Assembly (NCBI RefSeq): GCF_008329525.1
Contig: NZ_NPKQ01000002.1
Coordinates: forward strand, 1,054,001 to 1,118,000
Source of the DNA: Tardiphaga sp. P9-11
GTDB taxonomy: Bacteria; Pseudomonadota; Alphaproteobacteria; Rhizobiales; Xanthobacteraceae
Length of the DNA: 64,000 nt
Direction: 5' to 3'
The position numbers and the translations under genes are program-made. Below the pieces are notes generated by a model, which saw nothing but the letters and a program-made list of their open reading frames with translations, searched no databases and was not told the DNA's origin. Below are positions 5 to 39,008 of this stretch, piece after piece. How positions within the stretch are numbered: the stretch's first letter is position 1; every line of letters begins with the position of its first letter.

Positions 5-3000
5 GTGGCAGGGCGGCAGCGTATCGACCGCGTGAGACGCCAGTACAACCAATGGGTCGCCAACCAGACCCTTGAGGACTACGCCCTCCGCTTCACCGCG
101 AAGAGCGCCCGGCGCTGGTCCGCCGCGCGGGTCGCCAATACGGCGCTCGGCGCCATCTCGTTTCTGGCCCTCGAGGCCATCGGCGGCACCATCACCATCA
201 ATTACGGCATGACCAACGCCACAGCGGCGATCCTGGTGGTCAGTGTCATCATTTTTTGCTGCGGATTGCCGATCGCGTATCATGCCGCAAAATGCGGCAT
301 CGATATTGACCTCCTCACCCGCGGCGCCGGCTTCGGCTATATTGGCTCAACTGTTACATCGCTAATCTACGCGTCTTTCACCTTCATCTTTTTCGCCATC
401 GAGGCCGTCATTCTCGCTTCGGCGCTGGAGATGTGTTTCGATATTCCGCGTCCTATCGGCTACCTGATATCGGCGGTGGTCATCATCCCCCTGGTGACTC
501 ACGGCATCACGCTGATCAGCCGTTTCCAGCTCTGGACCCAGCCGATCTGGCTGGTACTAAATCTGCTGCCCTTCGCGGCCATCGCCTATTCCAGCCGCGA
601 CTCCTTCGTGGCATGGACCAAATTTCCGGGCGACCACGGCAGCGCCGCTGGCCATCTCGATCTCCTGCTGTTTGGCACGGCCGCGTCCGTCGTGTTCTCG
701 CTGGTCGCGCAGATCGGCGAACAGGTCGACTTCCTGCGCTTTCTGCCTCGCGACCGCCGCAGCTCCAAGGTGAGCTGGTGGGTGGCGCTACTCTGCGCAG
801 GCCCGGGCTGGATCATCGTCGGCGCCATCAAGCTGCTGGCCGGCTCATTCCTCGCCTATTTTGCACTGACCCACGGCATCTCCGCCGAACACGCCGCCGA
901 GCCTGCGCATATGTATCTCGAAGCGTTTCGCTATGTGCTGTCGCAGCCAGATTTGGCGCTCGCACTGACCGGCACCTTCGTGATCCTGTCGCAGCTCAAG
1001 ATCAACGTGACCAATGCCTATGCCGGCTCGATCGCCTGGTCGAACTTCTTCTCGCGCCTCACCCACAGCCATCCCGGCCGCGTCGTCTGGCTGGTGTTTA
1101 ACGTTCTGGTCGCGCTGCTGCTGATGGAGATCGGCGTCTACAAGGCGCTGGAGCAGACACTGGCGCTCTACTCCAACGTTGCGATTGCATGGGTCGGCGC
1201 GCTGGTCGCCGATCTGGTCATCAACAAGCCGCTCGGACTGCGCCCGCAGCAGATGGAGTTCAAGCGCGCGCATCTCTACGACATCAACCCGGTCGGCGTC
1301 GGCGCCATGCTGGCCGCCACCGTGATGTCGGTCAGCGCGTTTTATGGATTGTTCGGCCCCACGGCCAAGGCACTGTCGCCCTTCGTCGCTCTGGTTACTG
1401 CCCTCGTGATTGCCCCGATCATCGCCTTTGCGACAGGCGGGAAATACTACATTGCCCGCAAGCCGAAGCGCGCCTGGCAAAATATGGCGGCGATCCAATG
1501 CTGTATCTGCGAGCACTCGTTCGAGCCCGAGGACATGGCCCACTGCCCGGCCTATGCCGGCCCGATCTGCTCGCTGTGCTGCTCGCTCGACGCCCGCTGC
1601 CACGATCTCTGCAAGCCGCATGCGCGGATCGACGCGCAGATGTCGGCGACGTTCGGAAAATTGCTGCCGGAGCCGATCCTGGCCCGGCTCAACTCGCAGC
1701 TCGGCCATTATCTTGGCGTGTTCATGATCGCTGCCGGCCTCGTCGGCCTGACGCTGGGACTGATCTATCTGCAGACCTCCGCCGCCTCGCCGGGAGACAG
1801 CGCGCAGGTCTCGGAAGTGCTGTGGAAAGTGTTCTTCGCGCTGGCGATCATCATCGGCGTGGTGGCATGGCTATTCGTGCTGGCCAAGCAAAGCCGTCGC
1901 GCCGCTGAAGCCGAGACCAAGCGGCAGACCACGCTGCTGATGCAGGAAATCGACGCGCACAAGCGCACCGATGCCGAGCTGCAGCGCGCCAAGGAGGTCG
2001 CAGAATCCGCCAATCTCGCCAAGAGCCGCTACGTTGTCGGTCTGAGCCATGAACTGCGCTCGCCGCTCAACGCCATATCAGGCTATGCGCAGCTCCTGGA
2101 GCAGGACGAGAGCCTGCAAACGCGCCCGCGCGATCAGGTCCGCGTGGTGAAACGCAGCGCCGATCATCTCTCCGGCCTGATCGACGGCATTCTGGATATT
2201 TCCAAGATCGAGGCGGGGCGCCTTTATCTCTCGCGCGACGAAGTGCGCCTCACCGACTTCCTCGATCAGCTCGTCGGCATGTTCCGGCTACAGGCCGCAG
2301 CCAAGGGCATCGACTTCGTGTTCCGGCGGCCGAACATTCTGCCGACCGTGGTCTATGCCGACGAGAAGCGGCTGCGGCAGATCCTGATCAACCTGCTCTC
2401 CAATGCCATCAAGTTCACCCAACAAGGCAGCGTGCAGTTCGTGATCCATTATCGCAGCCCAGTCGCCGAATTCGAGATTATCGATACCGGACCCGGCATT
2501 CGTCCCGATGATCTGGAACGCATCTTCGCGCCCTTCGAACGCGGCGCGCTTGGCGCCGCGCAGCCCCACACGGGCACCGGTCTGGGCCTCACGATTTCCA
2601 AACTGCTTGCGGGCGTGATGGGCGGCGACATCCGCGTTAGCAGCGAGGTCGGCAACGGCAGCACCTTCCGCGTCAAGATGCTGCTATCGGAGGTCACCAA
2701 CCCCACGCGCATCGCCCCCGTGGATGCGCCGATCTACGGCTATCACGGCGCGCGCAAGACCATTCTGATCACCGACGACGATCCGACGCAGCGCGATCTC
2801 CTGCGCCAGGTGCTCACGCCACTCGGCTTCATCCTGCTCAGCGCGCCGGATGGCCAGGCTTGCCTCAGCCTCGCCCAGCATTGCCACCCCGATCTGTTCC
2901 TGCTGGATATTTCCATGGCGGGCATGGATGGCTGGACCGTCGCGGAAAAGCTGCGCTCCTCGGGCCACCATCACGCACGCATCCTGATGGTCTCGGCCAG

Positions 3001-3379
3001 CGCGCTCGAAGCCCACGGCACGCCGCTCGCCCAGCCATTCCATGATGGCTATCTGATGAAGCCGATCGAACTGCCGCGGCTGCTCGAACAGATCGGACAA
3101 CTCCTGAAGATCGAATGGCAATACGAACGCGACGAAGTGGCGCCGCTGCCGCAATGGACGCCCCATAGCGGCACCCGCCCGCCGGTGCATCATGTGGAGG
3201 AGCTCATCAGCCTCGGGCAGATGGGGCACATCCGCGCCATTCAGCTCAAGCTCGACGAGATCGGCAACGATCACCCCGAACATGCCGACTTTGTCGCGCA
3301 GATGCGTTCGCTGATCGATCGCTTCGACCTCGATCAATACATGGCCACCTTGAAGACGCTGTACACCTATGACCACTGA
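5..3379 (+). CDS. NCS1 permease-like / hybrid histidine kinase / receiver fusion sensor
   Basis: Predicted membrane sensor that fuses a nucleobase-permease-like domain to a kinase. Residues ~20-490 resemble NCS1 purine-cytosine permeases: EDYALRF at 24-30, RGAGFGY at 106-112, and many hydrophobic helices. A Cys/His-rich stretch starts at QCCICEH (residues 498-504) and runs to ~545. Two more membrane segments lie near 567-592 and 605-629. The kinase core has H-box SHELRSPLN with His682, an N box near 794, DTGPGI near 827 and GTGLGLTI near 857. A receiver follows with phosphoacceptor Asp968. The tail (~1050-1124) may be an Hpt-like or connector region; I see no clear motif there. The GTG start gives a sensible N-terminus, but the frame is open to the window edge, so the true start could lie upstream. 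The next gene overlaps by 11 bases, so the two are probably co-translated. The ligand is unknown; a purine, pyrimidine or related compound is inferred from the permease domain. Confidence 0.85.
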   Translation: MAGRQRIDRVRRQYNQWVANQTLEDYALRFTAKSARRWSAARVANTALGAISFLALEAIGGTITINYGMTNATAAILVVSVIIFCCGLPIAYHAAKCGIDIDLLTRGAGFGYIGSTVTSLIYASFTFIFFAIEAVILASALEMCFDIPRPIGYLISAVVIIPLVTHGITLISRFQLWTQPIWLVLNLLPFAAIAYSSRDSFVAWTKFPGDHGSAAGHLDLLLFGTAASVVFSLVAQIGEQVDFLRFLPRDRRSSKVSWWVALLCAGPGWIIVGAIKLLAGSFLAYFALTHGISAEHAAEPAHMYLEAFRYVLSQPDLALALTGTFVILSQLKINVTNAYAGSIAWSNFFSRLTHSHPGRVVWLVFNVLVALLLMEIGVYKALEQTLALYSNVAIAWVGALVADLVINKPLGLRPQQMEFKRAHLYDINPVGVGAMLAATVMSVSAFYGLFGPTAKALSPFVALVTALVIAPIIAFATGGKYYIARKPKRAWQNMAAIQCCICEHSFEPEDMAHCPAYAGPICSLCCSLDARCHDLCKPHARIDAQMSATFGKLLPEPILARLNSQLGHYLGVFMIAAGLVGLTLGLIYLQTSAASPGDSAQVSEVLWKVFFALAIIIGVVAWLFVLAKQSRRAAEAETKRQTTLLMQEIDAHKRTDAELQRAKEVAESANLAKSRYVVGLSHELRSPLNAISGYAQLLEQDESLQTRPRDQVRVVKRSADHLSGLIDGILDISKIEAGRLYLSRDEVRLTDFLDQLVGMFRLQAAAKGIDFVFRRPNILPTVVYADEKRLRQILINLLSNAIKFTQQGSVQFVIHYRSPVAEFEIIDTGPGIRPDDLERIFAPFERGALGAAQPHTGTGLGLTISKLLAGVMGGDIRVSSEVGNGSTFRVKMLLSEVTNPTRIAPVDAPIYGYHGARKTILITDDDPTQRDLLRQVLTPLGFILLSAPDGQACLSLAQHCHPDLFLLDISMAGMDGWTVAEKLRSSGHHHARILMVSASALEAHGTPLAQPFHDGYLMKPIELPRLLEQIGQLLKIEWQYERDEVAPLPQWTPHSGTRPPVHHVEELISLGQMGHIRAIQLKLDEIGNDHPEHADFVAQMRSLIDRFDLDQYMATLKTLYTYDH

Positions 3380-4292
3380 TAACAAAAAACGCGACGTCGC
3401 GCTGGTGGTCGATGACTCGCCGGAAACATTGCGGCTCTTGACCGATGCGTTGGACGGCGCCGGCATGACCGTGATGGTGGCGATGGACGGTGCCGCCGCC
3501 ATGCGCATTGTCGAGCAAATCACACCGGATATTATCCTGCTGGATGCTGTCATGCCGGGGATCGACGGCTTCGAGACTTGCCGCCGGCTGAAGCGCGATG
3601 CGGGTCTGGGCGACGTGCCCGTGATCTTCATGACCGGCCTCTCCGAGACCGAACATATTGTGCGTGGCCTGGAGGCCGGCGGCGTCGATTACGTCACCAA
3701 GCCCATCATCATCGAGGAAATGCTGGCGCGTATCCGCGTGCATCTCGCCAATGCACGGCTGACGCAGAGTGCGCGCACCGCGCTCGATGTCTCCGGGCGC
3801 TTCCTCCTCGCGGTGAGCAGCAAGGGCAATATCCTGTGGGCAACGCCGCAGGCGCAGAAGCTCCTGAACGATCACCTCATTTCCGCCCCCGACGACGAAT
3901 TGCTGCTGCCACCCGTGATGCTGCAATGGCTGGAGCAGATGCAGCGGCCCGGCGCAAAGCCCGCACCGTCATCAGGCTTTCCCAACAACGAGCTGCTGCG
4001 TCTGCAATATATGGGTAAAGTCGGCTCCGGCGAATTCTTGCTGCGGCTCGCCAAGGAGAACGCGCCGACCGCCCCTGCCGAATTCAGCAAGGAGCTCGGC
4101 CTCACCGGCCGCGAGGGCGAAGTGCTGTCCTGGCTGAGTAAAGGCAAGAGCAACCGCGACATCGCGCAGATCCTCGGCCTCTCACCACGCACGGTCGACA
4201 AGCATCTGGAGCAGATCTACGCCAAGCTCGGTGTTGAGAACCGCACAGCGGCGGCGGCCATCGCGGTGAATGCGAGCCACAGGCGGCAATAG
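3369..4292 (+). CDS. LuxR/NarL-family response regulator
   Basis: Two-component response regulator of 307 residues. The N-terminal receiver has acidic Asp15/Asp16, phosphoacceptor Asp59 (IILLDAVMPG), Thr89 and Lys111. The middle (~125-235) has no motif I recognise. The C-terminal LuxR-type helix-turn-helix lies around 240-300 (LTGREGEVLSWLSKGKSNRD, then SPRTVDKHLEQIYAKLGV). The start overlaps the end of the preceding kinase gene, so that kinase is the obvious phosphodonor. Its targets are not evident from the sequence. The next gene begins 195 bases downstream behind its own promoter, so direct control of that region is possible but unproven. Confidence 0.9.
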   Translation: MTTDNKKRDVALVVDDSPETLRLLTDALDGAGMTVMVAMDGAAAMRIVEQITPDIILLDAVMPGIDGFETCRRLKRDAGLGDVPVIFMTGLSETEHIVRGLEAGGVDYVTKPIIIEEMLARIRVHLANARLTQSARTALDVSGRFLLAVSSKGNILWATPQAQKLLNDHLISAPDDELLLPPVMLQWLEQMQRPGAKPAPSSGFPNNELLRLQYMGKVGSGEFLLRLAKENAPTAPAEFSKELGLTGREGEVLSWLSKGKSNRDIAQILGLSPRTVDKHLEQIYAKLGVENRTAAAAIAVNASHRRQ

Positions 4293-4487: not shown

Positions 4488-5693
4488 ATGACACGCCGGT
4501 TCCTGGTGTGCGCTGCCGCGCTCACGCTTTGGACATCCACCGCCTCCGCTCAGGTCTCCGACGACGTCGTTCGCATCGGCGTTCTCACCGATCTTTCAAG
4601 CTGGGGGCGCGACAATAGCGGCCCCGGCTCCGTCGAAGCCGCGAAGATGGCGCTCGAGGAATTCGGCCCGACGGTGCTCGGCAAGCCGATCGAGATCATC
4701 AGTGCCGATCACCAGATGAAGTCGGATGTGGGCATCCAGATCGCGCGCAACTGGTTCGACGCTGGCAAGGTCGATGCCGTCGTCGATATCCCGAACTCAG
4801 CCATCGCCATCGCGGTTCATAATCTGGCGAAGGATCGCAACAAGATCGCGCTGCTGTCCGGCCCAGGCGCAAGCACGCTGACGGATGAGCTATGCAGCCC
4901 CAACACGGTCCACTTCACCTACGACACCTACGCGCTTGCAAAGGTCACAGCCTCTGCTGTGGTCGCCGGCGGCGGCAAGTCATGGTTCTTCATCACCGCC
5001 GACTATGCCTTCGGCAACCAGCTTGAACAGGACGCAACGCGCTTCATCAAGGCGAGCGGTGGCACCGTGCTGGGCAGCGTTCGTCACCCAACCAACACTG
5101 CCGACTTCTCTTCTTTCGCGTTGCAGGCGCAGAACTCGAAGGCTGAAGTCGTCGCTTTCGCCAATGCCGGCCAGGACACCGACAATTCGATCAAGCAGTC
5201 CGGCGAATTCGGTCTCGTCAAGGGCGGCCAGAAGCTGGTCGGCCTGCTGATGTTCGACACCGACGTGCATGCCATCGGACTCGACGCAGCCCAAGGCACT
5301 TACCTCACCACTGCGTCCTACTGGAACATGGACGACAAGACGCGCGCCTGGTCGAAGAAATTCTTCGACCGCACCAAGGTGATGCCGACCATGATCCAGA
5401 CCGGCGTCTATGGCTCGGTCCTGCATTATCTCAAGGCCATCAAGGCCGCCGGCACCGACGATCCGGCCAAGGTGATGGCCAAGATGCGCGAACTGCCCAT
5501 CGAGGACACCTTCGTGCATGGAGGCAAACTGCGTGAGGACGGCCGCGTCATCCGCGACATGTATCTGGCTCGCGTCAAGAAGCCGTCGGAATCCAAGGAG
5601 CCTTGGGATTATCTCGACATCATCAAGACCGTGAAGGGCGACGACGCCTTCCGACCCGTCTCTGAATCGAAATGCGCATTGCTGAAGAAGTAA
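4488..5693 (+). CDS. Liv-type (branched-chain amino acid family) ABC substrate-binding protein
   Basis: Periplasmic type-1 binding protein of 401 residues, the size of LivK/HAAT-family receptors. The N-terminus MTRRFLVCAAALTLWTSTASA is a Sec signal peptide, with cleavage likely after ASA. The mature protein opens with VRIGVLTDLSS, typical of the family. Members in soil Proteobacteria often bind aromatic or short organic acids rather than amino acids, so the ligand cannot be named. No LivHMGF permease or ATPase genes accompany it, so it must use a transporter encoded elsewhere or act as a sensor. An FAD dehydrogenase gene starts 6 bases after its stop, suggesting one operon for uptake and oxidation of the same compound. 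Confidence 0.85.
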   Translation: MTRRFLVCAAALTLWTSTASAQVSDDVVRIGVLTDLSSWGRDNSGPGSVEAAKMALEEFGPTVLGKPIEIISADHQMKSDVGIQIARNWFDAGKVDAVVDIPNSAIAIAVHNLAKDRNKIALLSGPGASTLTDELCSPNTVHFTYDTYALAKVTASAVVAGGGKSWFFITADYAFGNQLEQDATRFIKASGGTVLGSVRHPTNTADFSSFALQAQNSKAEVVAFANAGQDTDNSIKQSGEFGLVKGGQKLVGLLMFDTDVHAIGLDAAQGTYLTTASYWNMDDKTRAWSKKFFDRTKVMPTMIQTGVYGSVLHYLKAIKAAGTDDPAKVMAKMRELPIEDTFVHGGKLREDGRVIRDMYLARVKKPSESKEPWDYLDIIKTVKGDDAFRPVSESKCALLKK

Positions 5694-5699
5694 GGTCTC

Positions 5700-7427
5700 A
5701 TGGCTGTTGATCCCAAGGCGAATATCGAGCTCTATGAATGCGACGTGCTGGTCGCCGGCTCCGGCTGCTCCGGCATGTCGGCGGCGATCACCGCTAGACA
5801 TAGCGGGCTCGATGTTCTGATCGTCGAAAAGGAGCCGCGGTTTGGTGGCACGACCGCGCGCTCCGGCGGCTGGCTGTGGATCCCCGGCACGTCGCTGGCA
5901 CGCGCCTGGGGCATCAATGAGAGCCCGGACGAGGCACGCACCTATCTGCGCCATGAAGCCGGCAACAGTTACGATGCCGCACGCGTCGATGCGTTTCTCG
6001 CCGCAGGGCCCGAAGCAATCGACTTCTTCACCTCCAAGACAGCGGTGCGCTTCGACATGCCGCTGACCTTTCCCGACTACGATGCGGAAGCGCCCGGCGG
6101 CAAGCAGGGCGGCCGTTCGATGGTGGCACGGCCGTTCGACGGACGCGAACTCGGCGACCACATCAAGAATATTGGTGCGCCGCTACCCGAGTTGACGGTG
6201 TTCGGCATCATGCTCGGCTCCGGCAAGGACATCATCCATTTCATGCGCGCAACGAAGTCGCTCACCTCGGCGATCTACGTCGCCAAGCGGCTGTCGAAGC
6301 ATTTCATGAACGTGCTGCGCTACGGCCGCGGCATGACGCTGACCAACGGCAACGCCCTCGCCGGCCGGCTCGCCAAATCCGCCTTCGATCTCAAGATTCC
6401 ACTGTGGCTGTCGTCACCGGTGCGCGAACTGATTATGGAAAACGGCACGGTTCGCGGCGCCATCGTTGAGCGCAACGGCAAGCGCGTCCGCATCTACGCA
6501 AGACGCGGCGTGGTGCTCGCATGCGGCGGCTTCCCGCATGACATCGAACGGCGCAAGGCGATGTTTCCGCATGCGCCCACGGGGCGAGAGCACACTTCGC
6601 CGGGCCCGACCGGCAATACCGGCGATGGTCTTCGCCTCGCGGAGTCCGTGGGCTGCCGTGTCGAAGATTCATTGCCGAATGCCGCTGCCTGGGTGCCGGT
6701 CTCGGTCACCCATCGCAAGGACGGCAGCAAAGGCGTGATGCCGCACTTCATCGATCGCGCCAAACCCGGTGTGATCGCCGTGATGCGCGACGGCGCCCGC
6801 TTTGCCAACGAAGGCAATTCCTACCATGCTTTCGTCCAGCAGATGATGAAAGCGGCAAAACCGGGCGAGGAAATAGCGGCTTGGCTTGTTTGCGACCACC
6901 GGGCACTCAGGCAATACGGGCTCGGCGCCGTGCCGCCCTTCCCGATGCCGATCGGCCAGTATCTGAGCTCGGGCTATCTCATCAAGGGCAACACGCTCGA
7001 AGAGCTCGCCAGCCAGGCTGGTATCGACGCCGGCGGCTTCGTCACAACCATCGCGCAATTCAACAACACCGCAGCCGAAGGCCGCGATCCGGCCTATGGC
7101 AAAGGATCGCGCGCCTATAACCGCTACCAGGGCGACGCCAACCACGGACCCAATCCCTGCGTCGCACCGATCGAACAGGGGCCGTTCTATGCCATCAAGA
7201 TGGTGATCGGCGATCTCGGCACCTATGCCGGCATCAGGACCGATGCACAGGCGCGCGCGCTCGACGCCGGCGGTCAGGTGATCAACGGCCTTTATGCAGC
7301 GGGTAACGACATGGCGAGCATCATGGGCGGCAATTATCCCGGCGCCGGCATCACACTCGGTCCCGCGCTGACCTTCGGTTATATTGCCGGCCGCCATCTC
7401 GCCGGCACGCCGGTAAAGGCAGCATGA
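5700..7427 (+). CDS. FAD-dependent dehydrogenase (fumarate reductase / 3-ketosteroid dehydrogenase type)
   Basis: Flavoprotein of 575 residues. The dinucleotide-binding motif GSGCSG covers residues 20-25, followed by EKEPRFGGTTARSGGWLW, typical of the FRD/KstD superfamily. The C-terminal FAD motif region (GGNYPGAGITLGPALTFGY) is intact. Such enzymes add or remove hydrogens next to a carbonyl on steroids, cyclic ketones or enoates. The sequence does not fix the substrate. The stop overlaps the ATG of the next SDR gene by 4 bases, so the two oxidoreductases are translationally coupled and probably catalyse successive steps. Confidence 0.85.
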   Translation: MAVDPKANIELYECDVLVAGSGCSGMSAAITARHSGLDVLIVEKEPRFGGTTARSGGWLWIPGTSLARAWGINESPDEARTYLRHEAGNSYDAARVDAFLAAGPEAIDFFTSKTAVRFDMPLTFPDYDAEAPGGKQGGRSMVARPFDGRELGDHIKNIGAPLPELTVFGIMLGSGKDIIHFMRATKSLTSAIYVAKRLSKHFMNVLRYGRGMTLTNGNALAGRLAKSAFDLKIPLWLSSPVRELIMENGTVRGAIVERNGKRVRIYARRGVVLACGGFPHDIERRKAMFPHAPTGREHTSPGPTGNTGDGLRLAESVGCRVEDSLPNAAAWVPVSVTHRKDGSKGVMPHFIDRAKPGVIAVMRDGARFANEGNSYHAFVQQMMKAAKPGEEIAAWLVCDHRALRQYGLGAVPPFPMPIGQYLSSGYLIKGNTLEELASQAGIDAGGFVTTIAQFNNTAAEGRDPAYGKGSRAYNRYQGDANHGPNPCVAPIEQGPFYAIKMVIGDLGTYAGIRTDAQARALDAGGQVINGLYAAGNDMASIMGGNYPGAGITLGPALTFGYIAGRHLAGTPVKAA

Positions 7428-8194
7428 TGGCCAGCTTCGCACCCAATCTGCTGAAGGGTCAATTGGCGCTTGTCACGGGTGCTGCCGCTGGCAACGGCCG
7501 CGCCATTGCAATGGGTCTGGCGGCGCATGGCGCCGATATTATCGTGACCGATATCGACCACGATGGCGCCGCACGCACGGCCGGCGATATTGCAGCCACC
7601 GGGCGGCAGTCATGGCATCATCATCTCGACGTTACGGATGTCGATGCCTGCCGACAGCTCGCACAGACTGTCAAAGCAAGTGCCGGCGACATTTCGATCC
7701 TGATCAACAATGCCGGCATCATCATTCGCGAAGGCATCGAATCCGAGCGCGCGGTTGAGAACTGGCGGCGCGTACTCGACGTCAACCTCAACGGCGTGTT
7801 TAACGTCACCCATGCCTTCCTGCCGGCCTTGCGCGCCCGGCGGGGCAGCGTGATCAATCTCGGCTCCATTGCCTCTTTCGTCGGAGTCGCCGATACCCTC
7901 GGCTATTCGCCCTCCAAGGGCGGCGTGAAACTGCTGACACAGGCGCTGGCGCGCGAAGTTGCCAAAGACGGCGTGCGCGTCAACGCCATTGCGCCGGGTG
8001 TGATCGAGACGGCCATGACCGAAGCGACGCGCAACGATCCCGCGCGGCTGGCCGGCTTCCTCGGCCGCACGCCGCTGGGCCGAGTCGGGCAGCCCGATGA
8101 GCTGATCGGCCCTGTGGTCTTCCTCGCTTCTCCCATGGCGACCTATGTCACAGGTGCGACCTTGCCAGTGGATGGAGGCTTCCTGGCCGTGTAG
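7424..8194 (+). CDS. short-chain dehydrogenase/reductase
   Basis: Classical SDR of 256 residues. The cofactor motif is TGAAAGNG (18-25), followed by NNAG (95-98) and a catalytic Ser148, Tyr161 and Lys165 in YSPSK. An acidic residue (VTDID, about residue 43) after the second strand suggests NAD preference. The C-terminal PVDGGF ending is family-typical. It sits in an ATGA overlap with the upstream flavoprotein and is followed after 27 bases by an IclR regulator. It resembles FabG-like catabolic alcohol or ketone dehydrogenases; the substrate is unknown. Confidence 0.9.
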   Translation: MMASFAPNLLKGQLALVTGAAAGNGRAIAMGLAAHGADIIVTDIDHDGAARTAGDIAATGRQSWHHHLDVTDVDACRQLAQTVKASAGDISILINNAGIIIREGIESERAVENWRRVLDVNLNGVFNVTHAFLPALRARRGSVINLGSIASFVGVADTLGYSPSKGGVKLLTQALAREVAKDGVRVNAIAPGVIETAMTEATRNDPARLAGFLGRTPLGRVGQPDELIGPVVFLASPMATYVTGATLPVDGGFLAV

Positions 8195-12277: not shown

Positions 12278-14986
12278 TTAACTCGCAGCAACCTTGCGCT
12301 GCTCATCCGGCGCCGTTTCGCTCGCCGCAATCAGGCGCTTGAGCTCCGGGATACACGAGCCGCAATTGGTGCCGGCCTTGAGCTTTGCGCCGATCTCCGC
12401 TGCCGTCCCCGCCCCCGCTGCGATAGCGTCGCAGATGGTATTGCGGCCGACGCCGAAGCAAGCGCAGACGATCGGACCGGCACTGGCCGCGCCATCGGCG
12501 GACTTTCCGGAGAGCAGCGTACGGCGCTGGTCGTCGCTCACGGTCTCGGCGGTGAACAATTCCTTCACGGCATCCCAGGAAAGCGCCCCCTCGGTCGGGC
12601 CGATGAACAGACAGGTCTCGATGCGGTCATCCTTGAACGACACCGCGCGATACACACCTTGGCCCACGTCCTCGTATTCAGCGGCATCATCGCCCAGCAA
12701 CGGCTTCAGCCAGTTCTGCCAGGTCTCGACATCGGTATTGTCGGAGAGCAGATAACCGACGCCGCCCGTGACTGCGACGCGCGCCCATTGCACGCCGAAC
12801 GTCATCTCCAGCGGTATGCGCGACAGCACGAAGCCGCGCTGCGCAAACACGACAGGTGCGATCGCCACCGGCGTCGCCTTGTTCTCGGGTTGACCAGAGA
12901 ATGGATCGACAAATGGCGCGACAAGCCCGCCGACACGCGCGAAACCCGCGGTCTCGTCGTTCCAGTGGATTGGCGCGAACAACATGCCGCGCTGCTGGCG
13001 CTCGCTGACAATGACTTTCAGCACACATTCGCCATGGTCGGTGGTCAGCCGCGCATGGCCACCGTCGACAATCGCGAACGCTACGGCATCGTCAGGATGG
13101 ATCTCGACGAAGGGCTCCGGAATATGCTGACCGAGCCGCGGGCTAAGGCCCGTGCGCGTCATCGTGTGCCACTGATCGCGGACGCGGCCTGTGTTGAGCC
13201 GTAGCGGGCGCTCGATCGACACCTGCGTGCGCAACTCCGGCGCCTCCGGCGCGATGAAACGCGCGCGCCGGTCATTGGCGTAGAATTGACCATCGGCGAA
13301 GAAGCGCGCCTGCGGCTTCGTGGTCCCCTCACGCACTGGCCATTGCACCGGGGCCATGGTGTCGAAGGCCTCGTCCGAGACCTTCATCAACCCACCGATA
13401 TCGAAATCGCGATGGCCGTTGTTTTCGAAAGCCGAAAGGCTGGCGTGCTCGCGAAAGATCTCGGCGGCCGATGTGTAGGCGAAGGATGCGCCATAGCCCA
13501 AGCGCTTGGCGACTTCGCTCAGCGCCCACCAATCCGGTCGCGCCTCGCCAGGCGCCCGCAGGAACGAACGCTGCCGCGACACGCGGCGTTCGGAATTCGT
13601 TACCGTGCCGGACTTCTCGCCCCAGGCCAGCGCTGGCAACAATACATGCGCACCGGCATTCACAGTGTCGTTGGAACGCACATTCTCCGACACCACAAAC
13701 AGATCGAGCTTGCTCAGCGCGGCGCGCACGACATCGGCATCGGGGAGCGATACCGCGGGATTGGTGCCCATCACCCACAACGCCCGAATCTCGCCGCGGC
13801 CAATGGCCTCGAACATCTGGACGGCCTTGAGGCCTTCATGGGTGGCGATATGCGGCGCCTTCCAGAACCGGCGCACGCGATCGATATCGACAGGCGTGAA
13901 GCCCATATGGGCTGCGAGCTGGTTGGCGAGGCCACCGACCTCGCGGCCGCCCATGGCATTCGGCTGGCCGGTCAGCGAGAACGGCGACGCGCCAAGCTTG
14001 CCGATGCGGCCGGTGGCCAGATGGCAGTTGAGGATCGCATTGACCTTGTCGGTGCCCTGCGCCGACTGGTTGACGCCCTGCGAATACAGCGTGACCACAC
14101 GCGGCGTCGCCTTGAACATCTGGAAGAAGGTCGCGACATCGATCTCGTCGAGCCCGGTTGCCTTGGCTGTCGCGGCCACGCTGCCGGCAATGGTCCTGGC
14201 CCGCGCGAGCGCCTCGTCAAAGCCCGCTGTGTGCTCCCCGATATAACTCTGATCCAGCGCACCGTTATCGGCGAGATAGGCAAGGAGCCCACTGAACAGC
14301 GCGGTGTCCGTGCCCGGCTTCAGGCCGAGAAACAAATCGTCATTACCAACGGTATCGGTGCGACGCGGGTCGATCACAACGATCCGCGCGCCCCGGGTCT
14401 GCTTGTTGGCCAGCATGCGCTGATACAGCACCGGATGGCACCAGGCGGCATTGGAGCCGACCAGCACCAGCAGATCCGCTTGGTCGAGATCCTCGTAGCA
14501 TCCCGGCACCGTATCGGCACCGAACGCGCGCTTGTGGCCGGCCACGGATGAGGACATGCAGAGTCGCGAATTGGTATCGACATTGGCGCTGCCGAGAAAG
14601 CCCTTCATCAGCTTGTTGGCGACGTAGTAATCCTCGGTCAGCAACTGGCCGGAGAGATAGAACGCCACGGCGCTGGGGCCATGTTTGGCGACGACCTTCT
14701 GAAATCCTTCAGCGACATGATCCAGCGCATCGCTCCATGCGACCTGCGCCATCTCGCCATTGTCGCCGCGCATCATCGGATGCAGCAAGCGCTCGTCGAG
14801 GCTCAGCGTTTCGCCGAGCGCCGATCCCTTCGAGCAGAGCCGGCCGAGATTGGCGGGATGCGCGGGATCGCCCGCAATCACTGCGCCGCCATTGCCGTCC
14901 GGCGTCGCCAGCACGCCACAACCGACACCGCAGTAAGGGCACGTCGTGCGCGTGGCGTGCAGATGCGGATCGACCGCGTTCATCAC
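12278..14986 (-). CDS. nasC: assimilatory nitrate reductase catalytic subunit with C-terminal BFD domain
   Basis: Cytoplasmic molybdopterin enzyme of 902 residues that reduces nitrate to nitrite. The N-terminal [4Fe-4S] ligands are Cys16, Cys19, Cys23 and Cys51 (CPYCGVGCG). A Mo-bis-MGD domain fills most of the length. The last ~80 residues form a BFD-like [2Fe-2S] domain (CACFGVGR ... NCGSC), as in NasA/NasC that receive electrons from an NAD(P)H flavoprotein. The start overlaps the stop of the flavoprotein gene by 4 bases; MM offers two adjacent starts. This matches the Bradyrhizobium nasC product, whose partners are Flp and a haemoglobin. It is the last gene of the minus-strand nitrate operon. 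Confidence 0.95.
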   Translation of the reverse strand: MMNAVDPHLHATRTTCPYCGVGCGVLATPDGNGGAVIAGDPAHPANLGRLCSKGSALGETLSLDERLLHPMMRGDNGEMAQVAWSDALDHVAEGFQKVVAKHGPSAVAFYLSGQLLTEDYYVANKLMKGFLGSANVDTNSRLCMSSSVAGHKRAFGADTVPGCYEDLDQADLLVLVGSNAAWCHPVLYQRMLANKQTRGARIVVIDPRRTDTVGNDDLFLGLKPGTDTALFSGLLAYLADNGALDQSYIGEHTAGFDEALARARTIAGSVAATAKATGLDEIDVATFFQMFKATPRVVTLYSQGVNQSAQGTDKVNAILNCHLATGRIGKLGASPFSLTGQPNAMGGREVGGLANQLAAHMGFTPVDIDRVRRFWKAPHIATHEGLKAVQMFEAIGRGEIRALWVMGTNPAVSLPDADVVRAALSKLDLFVVSENVRSNDTVNAGAHVLLPALAWGEKSGTVTNSERRVSRQRSFLRAPGEARPDWWALSEVAKRLGYGASFAYTSAAEIFREHASLSAFENNGHRDFDIGGLMKVSDEAFDTMAPVQWPVREGTTKPQARFFADGQFYANDRRARFIAPEAPELRTQVSIERPLRLNTGRVRDQWHTMTRTGLSPRLGQHIPEPFVEIHPDDAVAFAIVDGGHARLTTDHGECVLKVIVSERQQRGMLFAPIHWNDETAGFARVGGLVAPFVDPFSGQPENKATPVAIAPVVFAQRGFVLSRIPLEMTFGVQWARVAVTGGVGYLLSDNTDVETWQNWLKPLLGDDAAEYEDVGQGVYRAVSFKDDRIETCLFIGPTEGALSWDAVKELFTAETVSDDQRRTLLSGKSADGAASAGPIVCACFGVGRNTICDAIAAGAGTAAEIGAKLKAGTNCGSCIPELKRLIAASETAPDEQRKVAAS

Positions 14987-16200
14987 GCCGCCTCCGCGCG
15001 GACGGCGAGTGCGCGACCGAACATCATCTCGGCGCGGATATCGGAAATATCAATGCCGCTGCGGATCAGCTCGAGATACCACAGCGCATCCTGCGTATCG
15101 CCGACCAGCACGGCGCCAGCGAGCGCGCCATCTGCGATCACCAGCTTCTTGTAGGTGCCGCGGCGGGCATCGTTGAGCAGAAGCGTCTCGCTGCCTTCGC
15201 CCGCCATGAAATCTCCAACCGAGAAAACGCTGACGCCGGAGACCTTGAGATTGGTGGAGAGCACGCTGCCGGTATAGGCAGCGGCCTTGCCCGCGAGATG
15301 GCGTGCCAACACCCTGGCTTGTTCGTAGGCGGGCTCCACGAGGCCATAGCAGGTGCCGCGATGCTCGGCGCATTCGCCGAGTGCGAAGACGTCGTCGGTA
15401 CCGGTTGCCATCTGGTCGTTGACGACAATGCCACGATTGACCGGGATTTCCGCTTCCCTGGCGAGCGACGTGTTGGGCCGGATGCCGGCCGCAAAGATCA
15501 CGGCGTCGGCGTCGAGCATACGGCCATCGGCCAGTTCGACGCTCACGACACGATCGCTGCCATGAATACGTGCCGTATTGGCATTGAGCAAAATCCTGAC
15601 GCTCTTGCGTTCGACCAGCGTTTTCAGGAGGTTCGCTGCAGGTGCATCCAGCTGGCGCTCCATCAGCCGGTCCATCAGATGGATCAGTGTGACGTCAGCG
15701 CCCGCCTTGGCGAGGCCATAGGCAGCTTCGAGACCAAGCAGGCCGCCACCGACCACGACGACGCGCTTCTTCTGCGCGGCAAGTTCGAGCAGCAGGTCCA
15801 CATCGCGGCTGTCGCGGAACACATGCACGCCCTTGAGATCACCACCGGGCACCGGCAGCCGCAGTGCAGATGAACCGGTGGCGATGACCAGTTTTGAGAA
15901 CGGCACATGCTTGCCGGTCGATGTCGTGACCTCACGCGCGGCCATATCGATGGCGGTCGCCGTTGCGCCGTATTTCAGCGTGACGCCGCGGTCGCGCCAC
16001 CAGGCGGCAGGCTTCAGCTCGATCTCCTGGGATGTTGCCTCACCGGCCAGCACCGACGACAGCAAAACGCGATTGTAGGCGAGCCGTGGTTCGTCTCCGA
16101 TGACGGCGATGGCGTATCGACCGAGCGCGCATTTCGCCAGCTCGTCCACGAGCCGAGCCGCTGCCATGCCGTTACCAATGATGACCAGCGGCTCGCTCAC
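14983..16200 (-). CDS. flp: NAD(P)H-dependent FAD oxidoreductase, electron donor to nitrate reductase
   Basis: Flavoprotein of 405 residues related to the N-terminal half of NirB and to rubredoxin reductases. The FAD motif at the start is IIGNGMAAARLVDEL; the NAD-binding motif is VVVGGGLLGLEAAYGL near residue 150; DDVFALGECAEHRG near 275 is the C-terminal FAD motif. In Bradyrhizobium the equivalent Flp passes electrons from NAD(P)H to NasC and also to the haemoglobin Bjgb for NO detoxification. It lies between the globin gene (9-base gap) and nasC (4-base overlap), which supports both roles. Confidence 0.9.
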   Translation of the reverse strand: MSEPLVIIGNGMAAARLVDELAKCALGRYAIAVIGDEPRLAYNRVLLSSVLAGEATSQEIELKPAAWWRDRGVTLKYGATATAIDMAAREVTTSTGKHVPFSKLVIATGSSALRLPVPGGDLKGVHVFRDSRDVDLLLELAAQKKRVVVVGGGLLGLEAAYGLAKAGADVTLIHLMDRLMERQLDAPAANLLKTLVERKSVRILLNANTARIHGSDRVVSVELADGRMLDADAVIFAAGIRPNTSLAREAEIPVNRGIVVNDQMATGTDDVFALGECAEHRGTCYGLVEPAYEQARVLARHLAGKAAAYTGSVLSTNLKVSGVSVFSVGDFMAGEGSETLLLNDARRGTYKKLVIADGALAGAVLVGDTQDALWYLELIRSGIDISDIRAEMMFGRALAVRAEAA

Positions 16201-16209
16201 GTCATATCC

Positions 16210-16635
16210 TTACTCGGCCGCCTGCGCTGTGCCGTAGGCTTCAGAAATCATGTAGCCGGACAGCGTGCCGTAGGCCGCGGTCCAGGCGCTCGCGAGTTCG
16301 GGCGTCCAGGCGTCGCCGAGGCCATTCTCCAGGGTCCACAGCAGCGCACCGCCGACGATCGGATAGTGTTCGGCCTTCACGCCATAGGCCACGTGCTGCT
16401 TGGCGAGCGCGCTCGCTGCAGGCAATACAGTTTCGAGTCGCGTCAGGCCGGTGACGACGACGCCAAGCGTCGCCATCAATTTGCGGCCCTGCTCCTTCAT
16501 GTCGCCGCGAAACATCGGCTTCACTTGTGGGGCAACCTCGAAGAGACGGCCGTAGAACAATTCCGCAGCCACTTCGGAAATCGGCGCGACTTTCTTGAAA
16601 CTATCCTGGACCAGAGCGACGTCAGACGCATTCAT
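16210..16635 (-). CDS. bjgb: single-domain haemoglobin, Bjgb-like
   Basis: Globin of 141 residues in the flavohaemoglobin / Vitreoscilla haemoglobin class. Visible heme-pocket residues are Tyr28 (LFYGRLF, B10), Phe42 (MFRGD, CD1) and proximal His81 (KQHVAYG). It lacks a reductase domain. In Bradyrhizobium the homologue detoxifies NO made during nitrate and nitrite reduction, using Flp as electron source. The ribosome site (GGAGAG) is clear. A second globin of equal length lies 85 bases upstream. Confidence 0.92.
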   Translation of the reverse strand: MNASDVALVQDSFKKVAPISEVAAELFYGRLFEVAPQVKPMFRGDMKEQGRKLMATLGVVVTGLTRLETVLPAASALAKQHVAYGVKAEHYPIVGGALLWTLENGLGDAWTPELASAWTAAYGTLSGYMISEAYGTAQAAE

Positions 16636-16720
16636 GTAAACTCTCCTTGTTGTGGAAGGCGAGCTTGTGTGTCGCGCCGCGTGAGCGAATGTTCAGCGCG
16701 CGATAAAATGCGATGGGATT

Positions 16721-17146
16721 CTAGTGATAGGCCGCAGAAATCATGCGTGCTGCCAGAAAATTGTAAACCTTGTGCCACGAGGCCTCGACCTCGGGCGTCC
16801 AGCGCTCGCCAAGCCCCTGCTCCAGACTCCAGAACAGCGCCTCGCCGACTGGAAGATAATGCGAGGCCTCCACGCCATAATGCACATGGTCTTTCGCGAT
16901 CTTGCCGATTACCGACAATAGACCCGTGATATTGTCGAGACTGCCGACGATCACCGTAAGCGTTGCGATAAACTTGTGCTTGAGCTGCGCCATGTCGCCG
17001 CGAAACAGCGGGCGCGTTTCCGGCAATGTTTCGAACAGTCGAGCATAAAACAGATCCACCATGACCGAGGAGTTCGGCCACATCTGATCGAATGAGGATT
17101 GCACGCGCATGATTTCTTCGCGCGTCAGGCCTATCGAACGACTCAT
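16721..17146 (-). CDS. second single-domain haemoglobin
   Basis: Globin of 141 residues, homologous to but clearly diverged from the neighbouring one. Tyr34 (LFYARLF), Phe48 (LFRGD) and proximal His87 (KDHVHYG) are conserved. The C-terminal half follows the same plan (ALFWSLEQGLGERWTPEV). It lies between the transporter ATPase gene and the first globin in the same orientation, so it is part of the nitrate operon. A likely origin is tandem duplication followed by divergence. Division of labour, such as NO removal versus O2 or nitrite binding, is only inference. Confidence 0.9.
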   Translation of the reverse strand: MSRSIGLTREEIMRVQSSFDQMWPNSSVMVDLFYARLFETLPETRPLFRGDMAQLKHKFIATLTVIVGSLDNITGLLSVIGKIAKDHVHYGVEASHYLPVGEALFWSLEQGLGERWTPEVEASWHKVYNFLAARMISAAYH

Positions 17147-17220
17147 GATCTGCAGCTATCCGGAAAGTCTGAGCCGCATTCATTCGGTTTACCCTCGGAA
17201 GTCAAGAGGTAATGAGATGC

Positions 17221-18015
17221 TTACGCGGCTTCGACAAATTTGTGGCGCTCGTACAGGAATTCGAGCACGCGCTTGCGGCAATCGAGGTAGACGGCGTTGC
17301 TCGCCAGTTCGAGTCGCTTGCGCGGACGCTCCAGCGGCACATCGAGTACTTCGCCGATAGTCGCTGATGGCCCATTGGTCATCATCACGATACGATCAGA
17401 CAGCAGTACGGCTTCGTCGACGTCGTGGGTGATCATGACGATGGTGTTGCCAAGTTTCTGATGTAGCGCCATCACTGAGTCCTGCAGATGCGCGCGGGTC
17501 AGCGCATCCAATGCGCCGAACGGTTCGTCGAGCAGCAGCACCTTCGGCTCCATGGCCAGCGCACGGGCAATGCCGACGCGCTGCTTCATGCCGCCGGAGA
17601 TTTCCGAGGGGCGCTTGTCCTTGGCATGGGTCATCTGCACGAGATTGAGATTGTGCATGGTCCACTCGTCACGCTCGACGCGGCTCTTGGTCTTGGCAAA
17701 CACCTTGTCCACGCCAAGACGGACATTCTGGTAGACCGTCAGCCAGGGCAGCAGACTGTGGTTTTGGAATACGACGGCACGATCCGGGCCAGGTGAATTC
17801 ACCTCGCGACCTTCAAGGATCACGCCACCGATCGTTGCACGGGTCAGGCCGGCGATGATGTTGAGCATCGTCGACTTGCCGCAACCGGAATGGCCGATGA
17901 TGGAAACGTAATCACCCTTGCCGAGGTTGAGGTTGATATCCTTCAACACTTCGGACGAGACCTTGCCGCGGGTGAACACCTTGTCGACGTGATCGAGCTT
18001 CAGATATGGCGTCAT
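17221..18015 (-). CDS. nrtD: nitrate ABC transporter ATP-binding protein
   Basis: ABC ATPase of 264 residues, single domain without the binding-protein extension of cyanobacterial NrtC. Walker A is GHSGCGKST, the signature is ISGGMKQRVGIARALAMEP, and Walker B is VLLLDEPFGALD. I chose the ATG at 18015 because AAGGAGAG lies at proper spacing upstream; a longer frame would use an ATG at 18039. It energises uptake with the adjacent permease and binding protein. Confidence 0.92.
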   Translation of the reverse strand: MTPYLKLDHVDKVFTRGKVSSEVLKDINLNLGKGDYVSIIGHSGCGKSTMLNIIAGLTRATIGGVILEGREVNSPGPDRAVVFQNHSLLPWLTVYQNVRLGVDKVFAKTKSRVERDEWTMHNLNLVQMTHAKDKRPSEISGGMKQRVGIARALAMEPKVLLLDEPFGALDALTRAHLQDSVMALHQKLGNTIVMITHDVDEAVLLSDRIVMMTNGPSATIGEVLDVPLERPRKRLELASNAVYLDCRKRVLEFLYERHKFVEAA

Positions 18016-18042
18016 GATATCTCTCCTTAGCTGACCCAAGTG

Positions 18043-18936
18043 TTAGCTGACTGAGGTGCCGTGGGTGACAAGCTTGCCGAGCCCCGCGATCAAGCGGTCG
18101 AGCACGAAGCCGATGATGCCCACATAGAACAGCGACAGGATGATCTCGCTGATATGCGATGAATTCCAGGCGTCCCAGATGAAGAAGCCGATGCCGACGC
18201 CACCGATGAGCATTTCAGCAGCAATGATGGCGAGCCATGACAGGCCGATGCCGATGCGCAAACCCGTGAAGATGTAGGGCGCGGCCGAGGGCAACATGAC
18301 CTTCCAGAAGAACTCAACCGGATTGAGCTGCACCACAGCAGCCACGTTGCGATAATCCTGCGGAATGTTGCGAATGCCGACCGCGGTGTTGATGATGATC
18401 GGCCAGATCGAGGTGATGAAGATCACGAAGATCGCCGAGGGCTGACCGTCGCGAAACGCAGCGAGCGCCAGCGGCAACCAAGCCAGCGGCGGGATCGTGC
18501 GCAGCACCTGGAAGATCGGATCGAGGCCACGCATCGCCCAGACCGACTGACCGACCAGCGTACCAAGCGCGATGCCGACAACGGCCGCAAGCGAGTAGCC
18601 AAAGGCGACACGCTGAAGACTCGCCGACAGATGCCAGAACAGACCCTTGTCGATGCCGCCGCGATCGAAGAACGGATCGAAGATCAGCTCCTTGGTATCC
18701 TGATAGACCTTGGATGGCGGCGGCAAGGTCGACCCTGCGCGCCGACACACCAGCTCCCAGAACACCATCAACAGTGCAAAGACGATCAGCGGCGGGATCA
18801 CGCGCGCTGCCACGTCCTTGGCTGCCTTGACATACTTGTCGGTGTTCGGGACCTGCTTCGGAGCCAGTGCGACGCTGGCCACCGGCGGCTTCGCTAGTGC
18901 CGTTGCCGGTTCGGTCTTGATAACTTGCATGTTCAT
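18043..18936 (-). CDS. nrtB: nitrate ABC transporter permease
   Basis: Permease of about 297 residues of the nitrate/sulfonate/taurine family. A cytosolic N-terminal ~45 residues precede the first membrane helix (VIPPLIVFALLMVFWELV). The EAA-like loop and GIGLSWLAIIAAEM near the C-terminus are typical. I prefer the ATG at 18936, which has GGAG eight bases upstream; an upstream ATG at 18954 lacks a ribosome site. It ends 27 bases before the ATPase start. Confidence 0.9.
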   Translation of the reverse strand: MNMQVIKTEPATALAKPPVASVALAPKQVPNTDKYVKAAKDVAARVIPPLIVFALLMVFWELVCRRAGSTLPPPSKVYQDTKELIFDPFFDRGGIDKGLFWHLSASLQRVAFGYSLAAVVGIALGTLVGQSVWAMRGLDPIFQVLRTIPPLAWLPLALAAFRDGQPSAIFVIFITSIWPIIINTAVGIRNIPQDYRNVAAVVQLNPVEFFWKVMLPSAAPYIFTGLRIGIGLSWLAIIAAEMLIGGVGIGFFIWDAWNSSHISEIILSLFYVGIIGFVLDRLIAGLGKLVTHGTSVS

Positions 18937-18988
18937 CGCACTGATCTCCGTCATGTCAGTCAGGCCCAGCTCAATCTCAACGTCGCGC

Positions 18989-20305
18989 TCAGACGTCGAC
19001 GCGCTTGATGGCGAGCGATTTCAAATAGGCGGCGGGGTTCTCCGGATCAAACACCTTGCCGTCAAAGAACGTCTCCTTGCCGCGCGACGTCGAAGTCGGG
19101 ATGTCCGACGCGGCGACGCCGAGCTCCTTGGCGGCGTCCTTCCAGAGATCTTCGCGATTGACCTTGGCAATTAGCGCCTTGGCGTCGTAGCCGGCCTCAT
19201 ACTTGCCCCAGCGGATATCCTCGGTGATGAACCACAGATCGTGGCTCTGATACGGATAGGACGCATTGTCCTTCCAGAACCGCATCTGCTGCGGCGAGTT
19301 CTCGACTACGCGGCCGGTGCCGTAGTCGAACTTGCCCTTCATGCGATCGGTGACATCTTCGACCGGCACGTTGATCCACTGGCGCTTGGCACAGATCGCC
19401 GCGGCTTCTTCGCGATTCTCCATCTTCTCGCACCACTGCTGGGCTTCCATCACGGCCATCAGCAGCGCCTTCGCAGCTTTCGGATACTTATCGACAAAAG
19501 CCGCGCGCATGCCAAACGACTTCTCCGGATGCTTGTCCCAGAGTTCGCCCGTGGTCAGAGCGGTGTAGCCAATCTTCTGGTGGATGAGCTGCAGGTTCCA
19601 CGGCTCGCAGACGCAGAACGCGTCCATGGTACCGACCTTCATGTTCGCGACCATCTGCGCCGGAGGCACAACGATGGTTTCGATGTCCTTGTCGGGATCG
19701 ATGCCGCCGGCAGCGAGCCAGTAGCGGATCCAGAGGTCATGCGTGCCGCCCGGGAATGTCATTGCGGCCTTCACCGACTTGCCGCTTGCCTTCTTCTTCT
19801 CCAGCGCGACCTTGAACGGCGCGGTGTCGAGGCCGATCTTGAGATCCTCATATTCCTTGCCGACCGAGATGCACTGGCCATTCAGATTGAGGCGCGCCAG
19901 AATATACATCGGCGTCGGCACGTTGTTCTGCGTCACCTTGCCGGACGAAATCAGGTAGGGCATCGGCGTCAGGATATGCGCGCCATCGATGCCGTTGCCT
20001 TCGGAGCCAAGCACGAGGTTATCGCGCGTGGTACCCCACGACGCCTGCTTCAGTACTTCGGTGTCAGGCAGACCATATTTCGCGAAGATGCCCTTTTCCT
20101 TGGCGATGAACAGCGGAGCCGCATCGGTCAGCGCAATGAAGCCGAGCTTGGCGCCCTTCACTTCGGGACCAGCACCCTGCGCGAAAGCACCGGCGGGGAA
20201 GTTGAGCTTGGCGGCCGCTAGCAAGGCAGCGGTACCCGCGCCGGCTTTCAGAAGCTGACGGCGGCTGATCTTGCGGCCCGGCTTGTTGGTCTCTGACTTC
20301 GTCAT
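18989..20305 (-). CDS. nrtA: nitrate ABC transporter substrate-binding protein
   Basis: NrtA/CmpA-family periplasmic nitrate receptor of 438 residues from the chosen start. A Tat signal (RKISRRQLLKAGAG) is followed by a hydrophobic segment ending GAFAQG. I chose the ATG at 20305 because AAAGGACGA sits upstream and the Tat motif is then N-terminal; a longer frame starts at 20350. Conserved ligand-pocket regions such as GTHDLWIRYWLAAGGIDP and FCVCEPWN are present. It is the first gene of the minus-strand nitrate operon, behind a sigma54-like promoter about 175 bases upstream. Confidence 0.93.
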   Translation of the reverse strand: MTKSETNKPGRKISRRQLLKAGAGTAALLAAAKLNFPAGAFAQGAGPEVKGAKLGFIALTDAAPLFIAKEKGIFAKYGLPDTEVLKQASWGTTRDNLVLGSEGNGIDGAHILTPMPYLISSGKVTQNNVPTPMYILARLNLNGQCISVGKEYEDLKIGLDTAPFKVALEKKKASGKSVKAAMTFPGGTHDLWIRYWLAAGGIDPDKDIETIVVPPAQMVANMKVGTMDAFCVCEPWNLQLIHQKIGYTALTTGELWDKHPEKSFGMRAAFVDKYPKAAKALLMAVMEAQQWCEKMENREEAAAICAKRQWINVPVEDVTDRMKGKFDYGTGRVVENSPQQMRFWKDNASYPYQSHDLWFITEDIRWGKYEAGYDAKALIAKVNREDLWKDAAKELGVAASDIPTSTSRGKETFFDGKVFDPENPAAYLKSLAIKRVDV

Positions 20306-20477
20306 GTGCTGCTGTCGTCCTTTCGCGTCTCGGATGGCCTGCACCGTCATTGCCCCTCGTCACAGCGCACCTCGATCGAAGGCGTACGGACATAGCGGCG
20401 CGTCTGGGGAAAGCCCCATGATGGCAATGCTGGCTGGTGATTGATGGTGACGGCTACAATGGCGTCGCTAAGAACTA

Positions 20478-32579: not shown

Positions 32580-32606
32580 CACGCTCGGAAGGTCCTGCGA
32601 AAAGCT

Positions 32607-32637
32607 GATGGCGCCGCGAAGGCATCGCGACGCCATC
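32607..32637. terminator. hairpin between convergent genes, candidate terminator
   Basis: Arms GATGGCG (32607-32613) and CGCCATC (32631-32637) enclose a GC-rich loop with further pairing. It lies in the 104-base gap between the deaminase and the convergent porin gene. No T-run follows on either strand, so a rho-independent function is doubtful. Confidence 0.35.
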
Positions 32638-32683
32638 TGCATGAAGACTTGCTTTGGACGACTTGTCCGGAAGTCAGCTCACA

Positions 32684-33730: not shown

Positions 33731-33766
33731 TGGAATTACCCCCACCTGTTGACAATGATTGCGTGC

Positions 33767-37870: not shown

Positions 37871-37910
37871 AGAAATTCTCGCAAGACCATCTCGCAAACA
37901 GGAGACGCGT

Positions 37911-39002: not shown

Positions 39003-39008
39003 GCCATC

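Follow-up and report, generated by a model that had tools for sequence, protein, structure and literature searches.

The 64,000-nucleotide stretch of Tardiphaga sp. P9-11 DNA analysed here (contig NZ_NPKQ01000002.1, positions 1,054,001 to 1,118,000; referred to as the window) begins with a gene that joins a permease-like membrane domain to a histidine kinase, which raises the question of what such a protein senses and which genes it controls. An earlier note on this DNA had favoured a purine or other nucleobase as ligand. The domain order, the NCS1 ancestry of the membrane domain, the gene neighbourhood, the invariant pocket positions and a conserved palindrome, all observed by computation, point instead to a transceptor-type sensor kinase that probably responds to urea or short carboxamides and induces the neighbouring uptake and breakdown genes via its response regulator. 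In this argument, the assignment of the ligand is carried by the gene neighbourhood.

Architecture of the fusion and ancestry of its membrane domain

The frame of the kinase gene is open from position 2 to position 3379 of the window and continues in the genome for another 8 codons upstream, up to a TTG; the GTG at position 5, where the start is conserved in most relatives, gives a single protein of 1,124 amino acids (aa). In this protein, an NCS1-type permease fold is followed by an eight-cysteine (Cys8) domain, two helices, a histidine kinase and a receiver. Among the matches listed, the best named relative was from Tardiphaga robiniae Vaf-07 (98% identity over the N-terminal 633 residues). 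The features of the system are, in window coordinates:

5..3379, + strand: NCS1-type permease domain, Cys8 domain, two putative transmembrane helices and hybrid histidine kinase-receiver (1,124 aa)
65..1474, + strand: NCS1-type (LeuT-fold) membrane domain, residues about 21-490 (hhalign, Foldseek, position mapping)
1499..1612, + strand: cysteine-rich domain, residues 499-536, possibly zinc-binding (eight cysteines invariant in 35/35 sequences)
1697..1924, + strand: two further predicted helices leading into the kinase coiled coil, residues about 565-640
2021..2218, + strand: HisKA dimerisation/phosphoacceptor domain with His682 (Pfam PF00512)
2360..2683, + strand: HATPase_c catalytic domain (Pfam PF02518)
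2762..3094, + strand: receiver domain (Pfam PF00072)
3369..4292, + strand: response regulator with REC and LuxR/GerE DNA-binding domains (Pfam)

The earlier note had described one polypeptide composed of a permease-like domain, a kinase and a receiver, whose gene overlaps that of the response regulator. The 1,124-aa frame, the Pfam matches and the profile comparison bear this out, and the overlap amounts to 11 bases. The cysteine-rich domain and a divergent operon beyond the window edge are additional features; the operon was absent from the note because the window ends there.

By sequence profiles and a predicted structure, the N-terminal domain is NCS1-derived and represents a divergent branch of this family, since profile comparison, a bridging permease and structure matches agree. 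An alignment of 25 family members was compared with alignments of known families (hhalign), giving a probability of 98.9% for 18 PF02133 (NCS1) proteins (E = 1.5e-17, 389 columns) and of 95.8% for 7 CodB/CytX-like proteins (E = 8.1e-9). The bridge is a stand-alone permease of another genome, L146, with 27% pairwise identity over 486 columns (E = 9e-35) and a score of its own above the PF02133 cut-off (35.9 versus 23.5 bits). An AlphaFold2 model covering residues 1-732 was built from 35 sequences (mean predicted local distance difference test score, pLDDT, 78.2; predicted template modelling score, pTM, 0.72). Foldseek analysis of this model against the PDB revealed CodB or Mhp1 chains as the five best matches (E = 3.4e-9 to 1.3e-6), and the next fold after NCS1 in the list was AdiC (E = 1.0e-5). 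The permease L146 (7784-9439 of its locus) was the best-matching stand-alone NCS1 permease in an even sample of Pseudomonadota; a UrtA-like gene (29%) lies about 1.8 kb downstream of it.

The overall architecture, a transporter fold joined to a kinase, is also that of the SLC5/STAC kinases of the CbrA family. Membership of the membrane domain in SLC5 was nevertheless rejected, as the hhalign control against 17 SLC5 proteins gave a probability of 3.3% (E = 0.013) compared with 98.9% (E = 1.5e-17) for NCS1, and NCS1 chains were ranked first by Foldseek; an SLC5/STAC kinase is thus extremely improbable. The earlier note had taken residues 20-490 as an NCS1-like domain and the whole as a transporter-derived sensor analogous to CbrA, with NCS1 in place of SLC5. 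Both proposals are supported, the NCS1 ancestry by the 389 columns aligned profile versus profile and by the CodB and Mhp1 matches of the predicted structure.

The eight cysteines of the Cys8 domain are located at residues 499, 502, 514, 522, 525, 526, 532 and 536, and the domain gave no Pfam match. When the segment alone was searched against 200 genomes, it was found at 28 places, all of them in 894-1,223-aa frames of the sensor family, together with three further weak matches (E about 0.003-0.004). A fold search with a 57-residue model gave no match at E = 0.001, and zinc binding is therefore only suggested; the top of the list was occupied mostly by RING, PHD, FYVE and LIM types, none of them significant. 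In the AlphaFold2 model, helices are predicted at residues 565-594 and 596-699, running into the kinase, and from the hydrophobicity, judged by eye, we infer that the two extra helices cross the membrane.

The kinase part showed Pfam matches to HisKA (E = 2.1e-16), HATPase_c (E = 4.3e-26) and Response_reg (E = 4e-19), and with all three present the protein is a hybrid histidine kinase. H682 is invariant in 35 sequences, and the sequence motifs of the HATPase_c catalytic domain were located. To judge from its relatives' sequences, the kinase can lose its receiver: relative L150 has none by Pfam, and L151 is similarly short. The genes for these shorter relatives (L150, 8501-11182, 894 aa; L151, 8665-11361, 899 aa) adjoin FmdA, and no urt genes of the type described below were found within the fetched 20 kb.

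Conserved neighbours and a palindrome upstream of the kinase

The neighbourhood was analysed in two sets, the 80 best relatives in GTDB genomes (near set), where at least 586 stretches encoding N-terminal relatives were seen, and 398 evenly drawn Pseudomonadota genomes (even sample). The NCS1-type domain was matched in 60 of the 398 sample genomes, and 52 hold 57 fused copies; together with the at least 586 GTDB stretches, these numbers argue that permease and kinase were not joined by chance. Loci of 55 of the 57 fused copies were examined, the omitted ones being the window's own copy (L009) and that of genome G111, which lies at a contig end.

Just beyond the left edge of the window, UrtA, UrtB, UrtC, UrtD, UrtE and FmdA are encoded in a divergent run. 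Two of these products scored above their NCBIfam cut-offs, FmdA at equivalog level (767.6 versus 500 bits) and UrtA (543.3 versus 492.75 bits), and the middle urt genes were named by eye and from the NCBI annotation of a like-ordered Chelatococcus locus. In the near set, UrtA was present in 78/80 loci, divergent within 700 bp in 77/80, and FmdA in 70/80, with nine of the ten loci lacking FmdA truncated by a contig end. A response regulator was found near the kinase in 79/80 near loci and, by clustering of open reading frames (ORFs), in 46/55 sample loci. The same clustering identified at least one of Urt, FmdA, AmiE or urease genes in 54/55 sample loci (UrtA in 42, FmdA in 33, AmiE in 17, UreC in 9), and the sole exception, L221, sits on a 4.8-kb contig. 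Cluster names were assigned by eye from representative sequences and agree with tblastn searches using the window's neighbours (first 20 regions), with NCBIfam (two UrtA proteins) and with the annotation of named records, namely Chelatococcus pCO-6, a Klebsiella IncF plasmid and S. meliloti pSymB (urt genes only). The linkage to urt, fmd, ami or ure genes is conserved, as expected for a regulator of urea or short-amide utilization.

The palindrome TACGY-N6-RCGTA was found in 73/81 near loci, a count that includes the window's own copy, when at most 400 bases preceding the kinase gene were searched. In the even sample, where 500 bases upstream and 150 bases inside the kinase gene were searched, it was present in 28/37 amidase-linked, 1/6 urt-only, 0/11 urease-linked and 0/1 unlinked loci; these counts are the better evidence for an operator because the near loci are closely related. 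Dinucleotide shuffles gave 0.05 expected occurrences in each of the two large sets, a reversed-letter control gave 0, and a search for the looser TACG-N6..9-CGTA always returned a spacer of 8. Genome-wide, 6 sites of the palindrome were detected, compared with 41 for the backwards control; one of the 6 lies in the urtA-kinase intergenic region, and the 64-kb window contains 0 sites. On these counts, TACGY-N6-RCGTA is a probable operator; for urease-linked copies, either a different site must be in use or the regulator has changed.

These results bear on the purine or nucleobase sensor of the earlier note, which would control the purine genes of the window. The NCS1 carriers that have been characterised transport mainly nucleobases, allantoin and hydantoins (PMC9379551, PMC13390362), and purine genes, recognised by eye, lie about 29-43 kb away. 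The palindrome counts in window and genome and the urea/amide neighbourhood in 54/55 sample loci speak against this proposal, and the conserved neighbours (urea/amide ABC transporter, formamidase, amidase and urease genes) make a purine ligand very unlikely. The purine cluster itself extends over 32079-46709 and comprises, by eye, genes for a deaminase-like protein, a nucleoside-type ABC transporter, xanthine dehydrogenase subunits and a xanthine/uracil-type permease.

Ligand, pocket positions and alternative roles of the membrane domain

In the proposed mechanism, urea or a short carboxamide, e.g. formamide, would bind to the ancestral substrate site of the NCS1-derived domain, and the ligand-driven conformational change would be transmitted through the Cys8 domain and the two extra helices to the kinase. 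His682 would then be autophosphorylated and its phosphate transferred to the LuxR-type response regulator, and the receiver of the kinase itself would serve as relay or brake. The regulator would bind to TACGY-N6-RCGTA between the divergent transcription units and induce urtABCDE-fmdA; in relatives, the induced genes would also include amiE or urease genes.

Pocket positions were mapped by a MAFFT alignment to CodB, the residue roles of which were taken from PMC9379551, with 18 ordinary NCS1 proteins as comparison rows. Gln105 of CodB corresponds to T126, Trp108 to F129 (Trp in 13/18, Phe in 5/18 ordinary rows), Gly112 to E133 (Gln or Asn in 16/18), Asn280 to N334 and, in transmembrane helix 6 (TM6), Phe204 to L233 and Ala207 to Q236. 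The threonines of the Na2 sodium site, Thr278/Thr279, correspond to K332/I333, so that the hydroxyls found in CodB are missing. All eight positions (T126, F129, E133, L233, Q236, N334, K332 and I333) are invariant in 25/25 family members from both amidase and urease contexts. Since the pocket positions are identical in these contexts, a shared carboxamide/urea ligand is the simplest assumption, and urea or short carboxamides are the most likely ligand.

Of the aromatic sandwich formed by Trp108 and Phe204 in CodB, one aromatic is kept (F129), with L233 at the other position in an uncertain TM6 alignment. The L233 match is weak, as the Phe204 column is non-aromatic in 7/18 ordinary rows; CodB Phe204 is described as conserved (PMC9379551), and the column may therefore be misaligned. 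The invariant Leu thus speaks only weakly against a purine ligand. Thr or Ser occupies the two Na2 positions in only 6/18 and 8/18 ordinary rows, and position 332 is Lys or Arg and position 133 Glu in the four stand-alone relatives L146-L149 as well; changes of the K332/E133 type are hence not specific to the sensor.

A residue column separating urease-linked from amidase-linked copies was sought, and none was clean. Position 299 came nearest, with Glu in 33/39 amidase-linked rows and Asp or Asn in urease-linked ones, from which the Acinetobacter copy deviates. In a midpoint-rooted tree of 61 rows, in which some deep forks are weak and the direction of context change is left unsettled, urease-linked copies formed no fewer than three separate groups interspersed with amidase-linked ones (L211 with L153-L160, L154 with L161, and L163 with L165), while the Acinetobacter row was long-branched and apart from these. 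The context label requires five changes on the tree (at least four forced by supported branches) versus a shuffled mean of 11.1; one of the five changes stems from L164, which was labelled urt-only though the adjoining cluster accompanies UreA elsewhere. Five genomes contain two fused copies, comprising one amide-cluster and one urease-cluster copy in four of them (G158, G225, G246 and G379) and two amide-linked copies in G091.

A kinase-free homologue, P0002 (L272, 5950-7557; 535 aa), has a shortened cysteine tail and adjoins the urease operon of an Acinetobacter plasmid. By inspection, it retains the residues at the compared pocket positions, and a terminator-like hairpin with a T-run was read by eye 3' of its gene. 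From its sequence, P0002 may be the permease version of the domain, i.e. a candidate urea permease. A 43-46% identical stand-alone gene of this kind is consistent with a bifunctional protein that both transports and senses urea or amides, as a true transceptor like CbrA, the SLC5 domain of which binds and transports histidine (PMC13022988). Such bifunctionality is possible but doubtful: most fused copies adjoin a dedicated ABC importer, and the Amt-kinase sensor binds its ligand without efficient transport (PMC8534201). The Lys/Ile pair at the Na2 side-chain positions is a weaker counterargument, given the Lys/Arg in L146-L149 and the 12/18 and 10/18 ordinary rows without Thr/Ser.

Alternatively, the NCS1 domain could be an accessory sensor that does not itself bind the nutrient and responds to a partner (loaded UrtA, for example), to nitrogen status or to pH. 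In favour of this alternative, UrtA is encoded next to the kinase and divergently in 77/80 loci, and the neighbouring genes alone do not name a ligand. It is unlikely, however, in view of the invariant polar pocket positions and of copies found without urt genes in the fetched stretches, L150 and L151 beside FmdA and L155, L156, L158 and L159 beside urease genes.

Direct sensing of urea or short carboxamides by an NCS1-derived domain remains the preferred reading, and the following observations weigh against it. The neighbourhood indicates the likely regulon and not the ligand, and what is sensed could be nitrogen status or loaded UrtA. As a single sequence, the N-terminal domain gave no match to Pfam, NCBIfam or the PDB (phmmer), nor did the family profile match any PDB entry; its ancestry became visible only when profiles were compared with profiles and structures with structures. 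The structure model is only moderate, with pLDDT blocks of 44-60 over residues 1-40 and 351-380, and hhalign places a one-residue gap at the TM6 pocket positions, the alignment of which is uncertain. Near locus L013 lacks nearby urt and fmd genes although its flanks are complete; urt genes without a detected amidase or urease cluster within the fetched 20 kb occur at five sample loci of one family and in S. meliloti. Finally, the palindrome is absent from 11/11 urease-linked, 5/6 urt-only and 9/37 amidase-linked loci.

Relation to known systems and further genes of the window

Transporter-kinase fusions are already known for SLC5/STAC (PMC13022988, PMC9100948) and Amt (PMC8534201, PMC5764959) proteins, and the version with an NCS1 domain appears to be new; the CbrA structure paper calls a joined transporter-kinase protein rare (PMC13022988). 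Neither an NCS1-histidine kinase nor a kinase of amide/urea operons was recognised in open PubMed Central, as covered by result listings rather than every paper. In CbrA, CrbS and RpuS, too, a transporter domain of the LeuT fold is joined to a histidine kinase, and regulation is nutrient-linked, in their case of histidine, acetate and pyruvate systems (PMC13022988, PMC9100948). The protein studied here differs from them by its NCS1 instead of SLC5 domain, by its linkage to amide/urea genes and by the Cys8 domain and two-helix linker, which hold the place occupied by the STAC domain in CbrA (PMC13022988). Ks-Amt5 is similar in that a transporter fold fused to a histidine kinase has turned into a receptor for a small nitrogen compound, but its fold is Amt and its ligand ammonium (PMC5764959, PMC8534201). 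CodB and Mhp1 share the fold, and the positions of CodB Asp213, Arg216, Tyr285 and Asn280 are retained in the sensor, whereas both lack the kinase and the Cys8 domain (PMC9379551); the sensor in turn has Phe for Trp108, Leu for Phe204 if the alignment holds, and Lys/Ile for the Na2 Thr pair.

The fmdCABDEF cluster of Methylophilus also combines a formamidase with ABC uptake of short amides and urea and is induced by formamide and urea; it contains a putative positive regulator, and the term 'histidine kinase' does not occur in that paper (PMC10781810). In S. meliloti, SMb20609/SMb20610 are probably the orthologous kinase-regulator pair, as judged from gene order beside dctA and urt genes and not from a comparison with the sequence of strain 1021. 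SMb20609 is a PhaR-controlled histidine kinase that has been called functionally uncharacterised (PMC12542648).

On a Klebsiella IncF plasmid (L271, CP024516.1, 2909-13264), a 49%-identical NCS1 kinase and its regulator are divergent from amiF-urtEDCBA, and the whole-protein query matched 342 Klebsiella plasmid records at E up to 1e-60. This locus appears to be the UTS cluster described for lineage CG307 in a paper that does not contain the term 'histidine kinase' (PMC13060141).

We regard as evenly poised the wider proposal that NCS1-Cys8 kinases form an undescribed transceptor class, widespread in Pseudomonadota and on plasmids, which senses urea or carboxamides directly via a repurposed nucleobase-permease pocket, possibly still transports, couples through a new zinc-type cytoplasmic domain and provides the missing step of inducer recognition for urt/fmd/urease operons. 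With NCS1, a second lineage of the LeuT superfamily has turned sensor separately from SLC5, and urea/amide uptake operons gain a specific candidate regulator, including the probable S. meliloti pair and the urea transporter cluster of Klebsiella plasmids. The ligands of NCS1 proteins would widen beyond heterocycles, as with the metformin carrier MetT (PMC13390362).

Directly downstream of the response regulator gene, positions 4488-8194 of the window encode a UrtA-like binding protein (SBP2), an FAD dehydrogenase-like and an SDR-like protein. These genes were rejected as part of the system on counts of 3/80, 1/80 and 1/80 loci, respectively (50% identity, half coverage). Further downstream, genes recognised by eye at 12278-20350 probably serve nitrate assimilation (a reductase and a nitrate ABC transporter).

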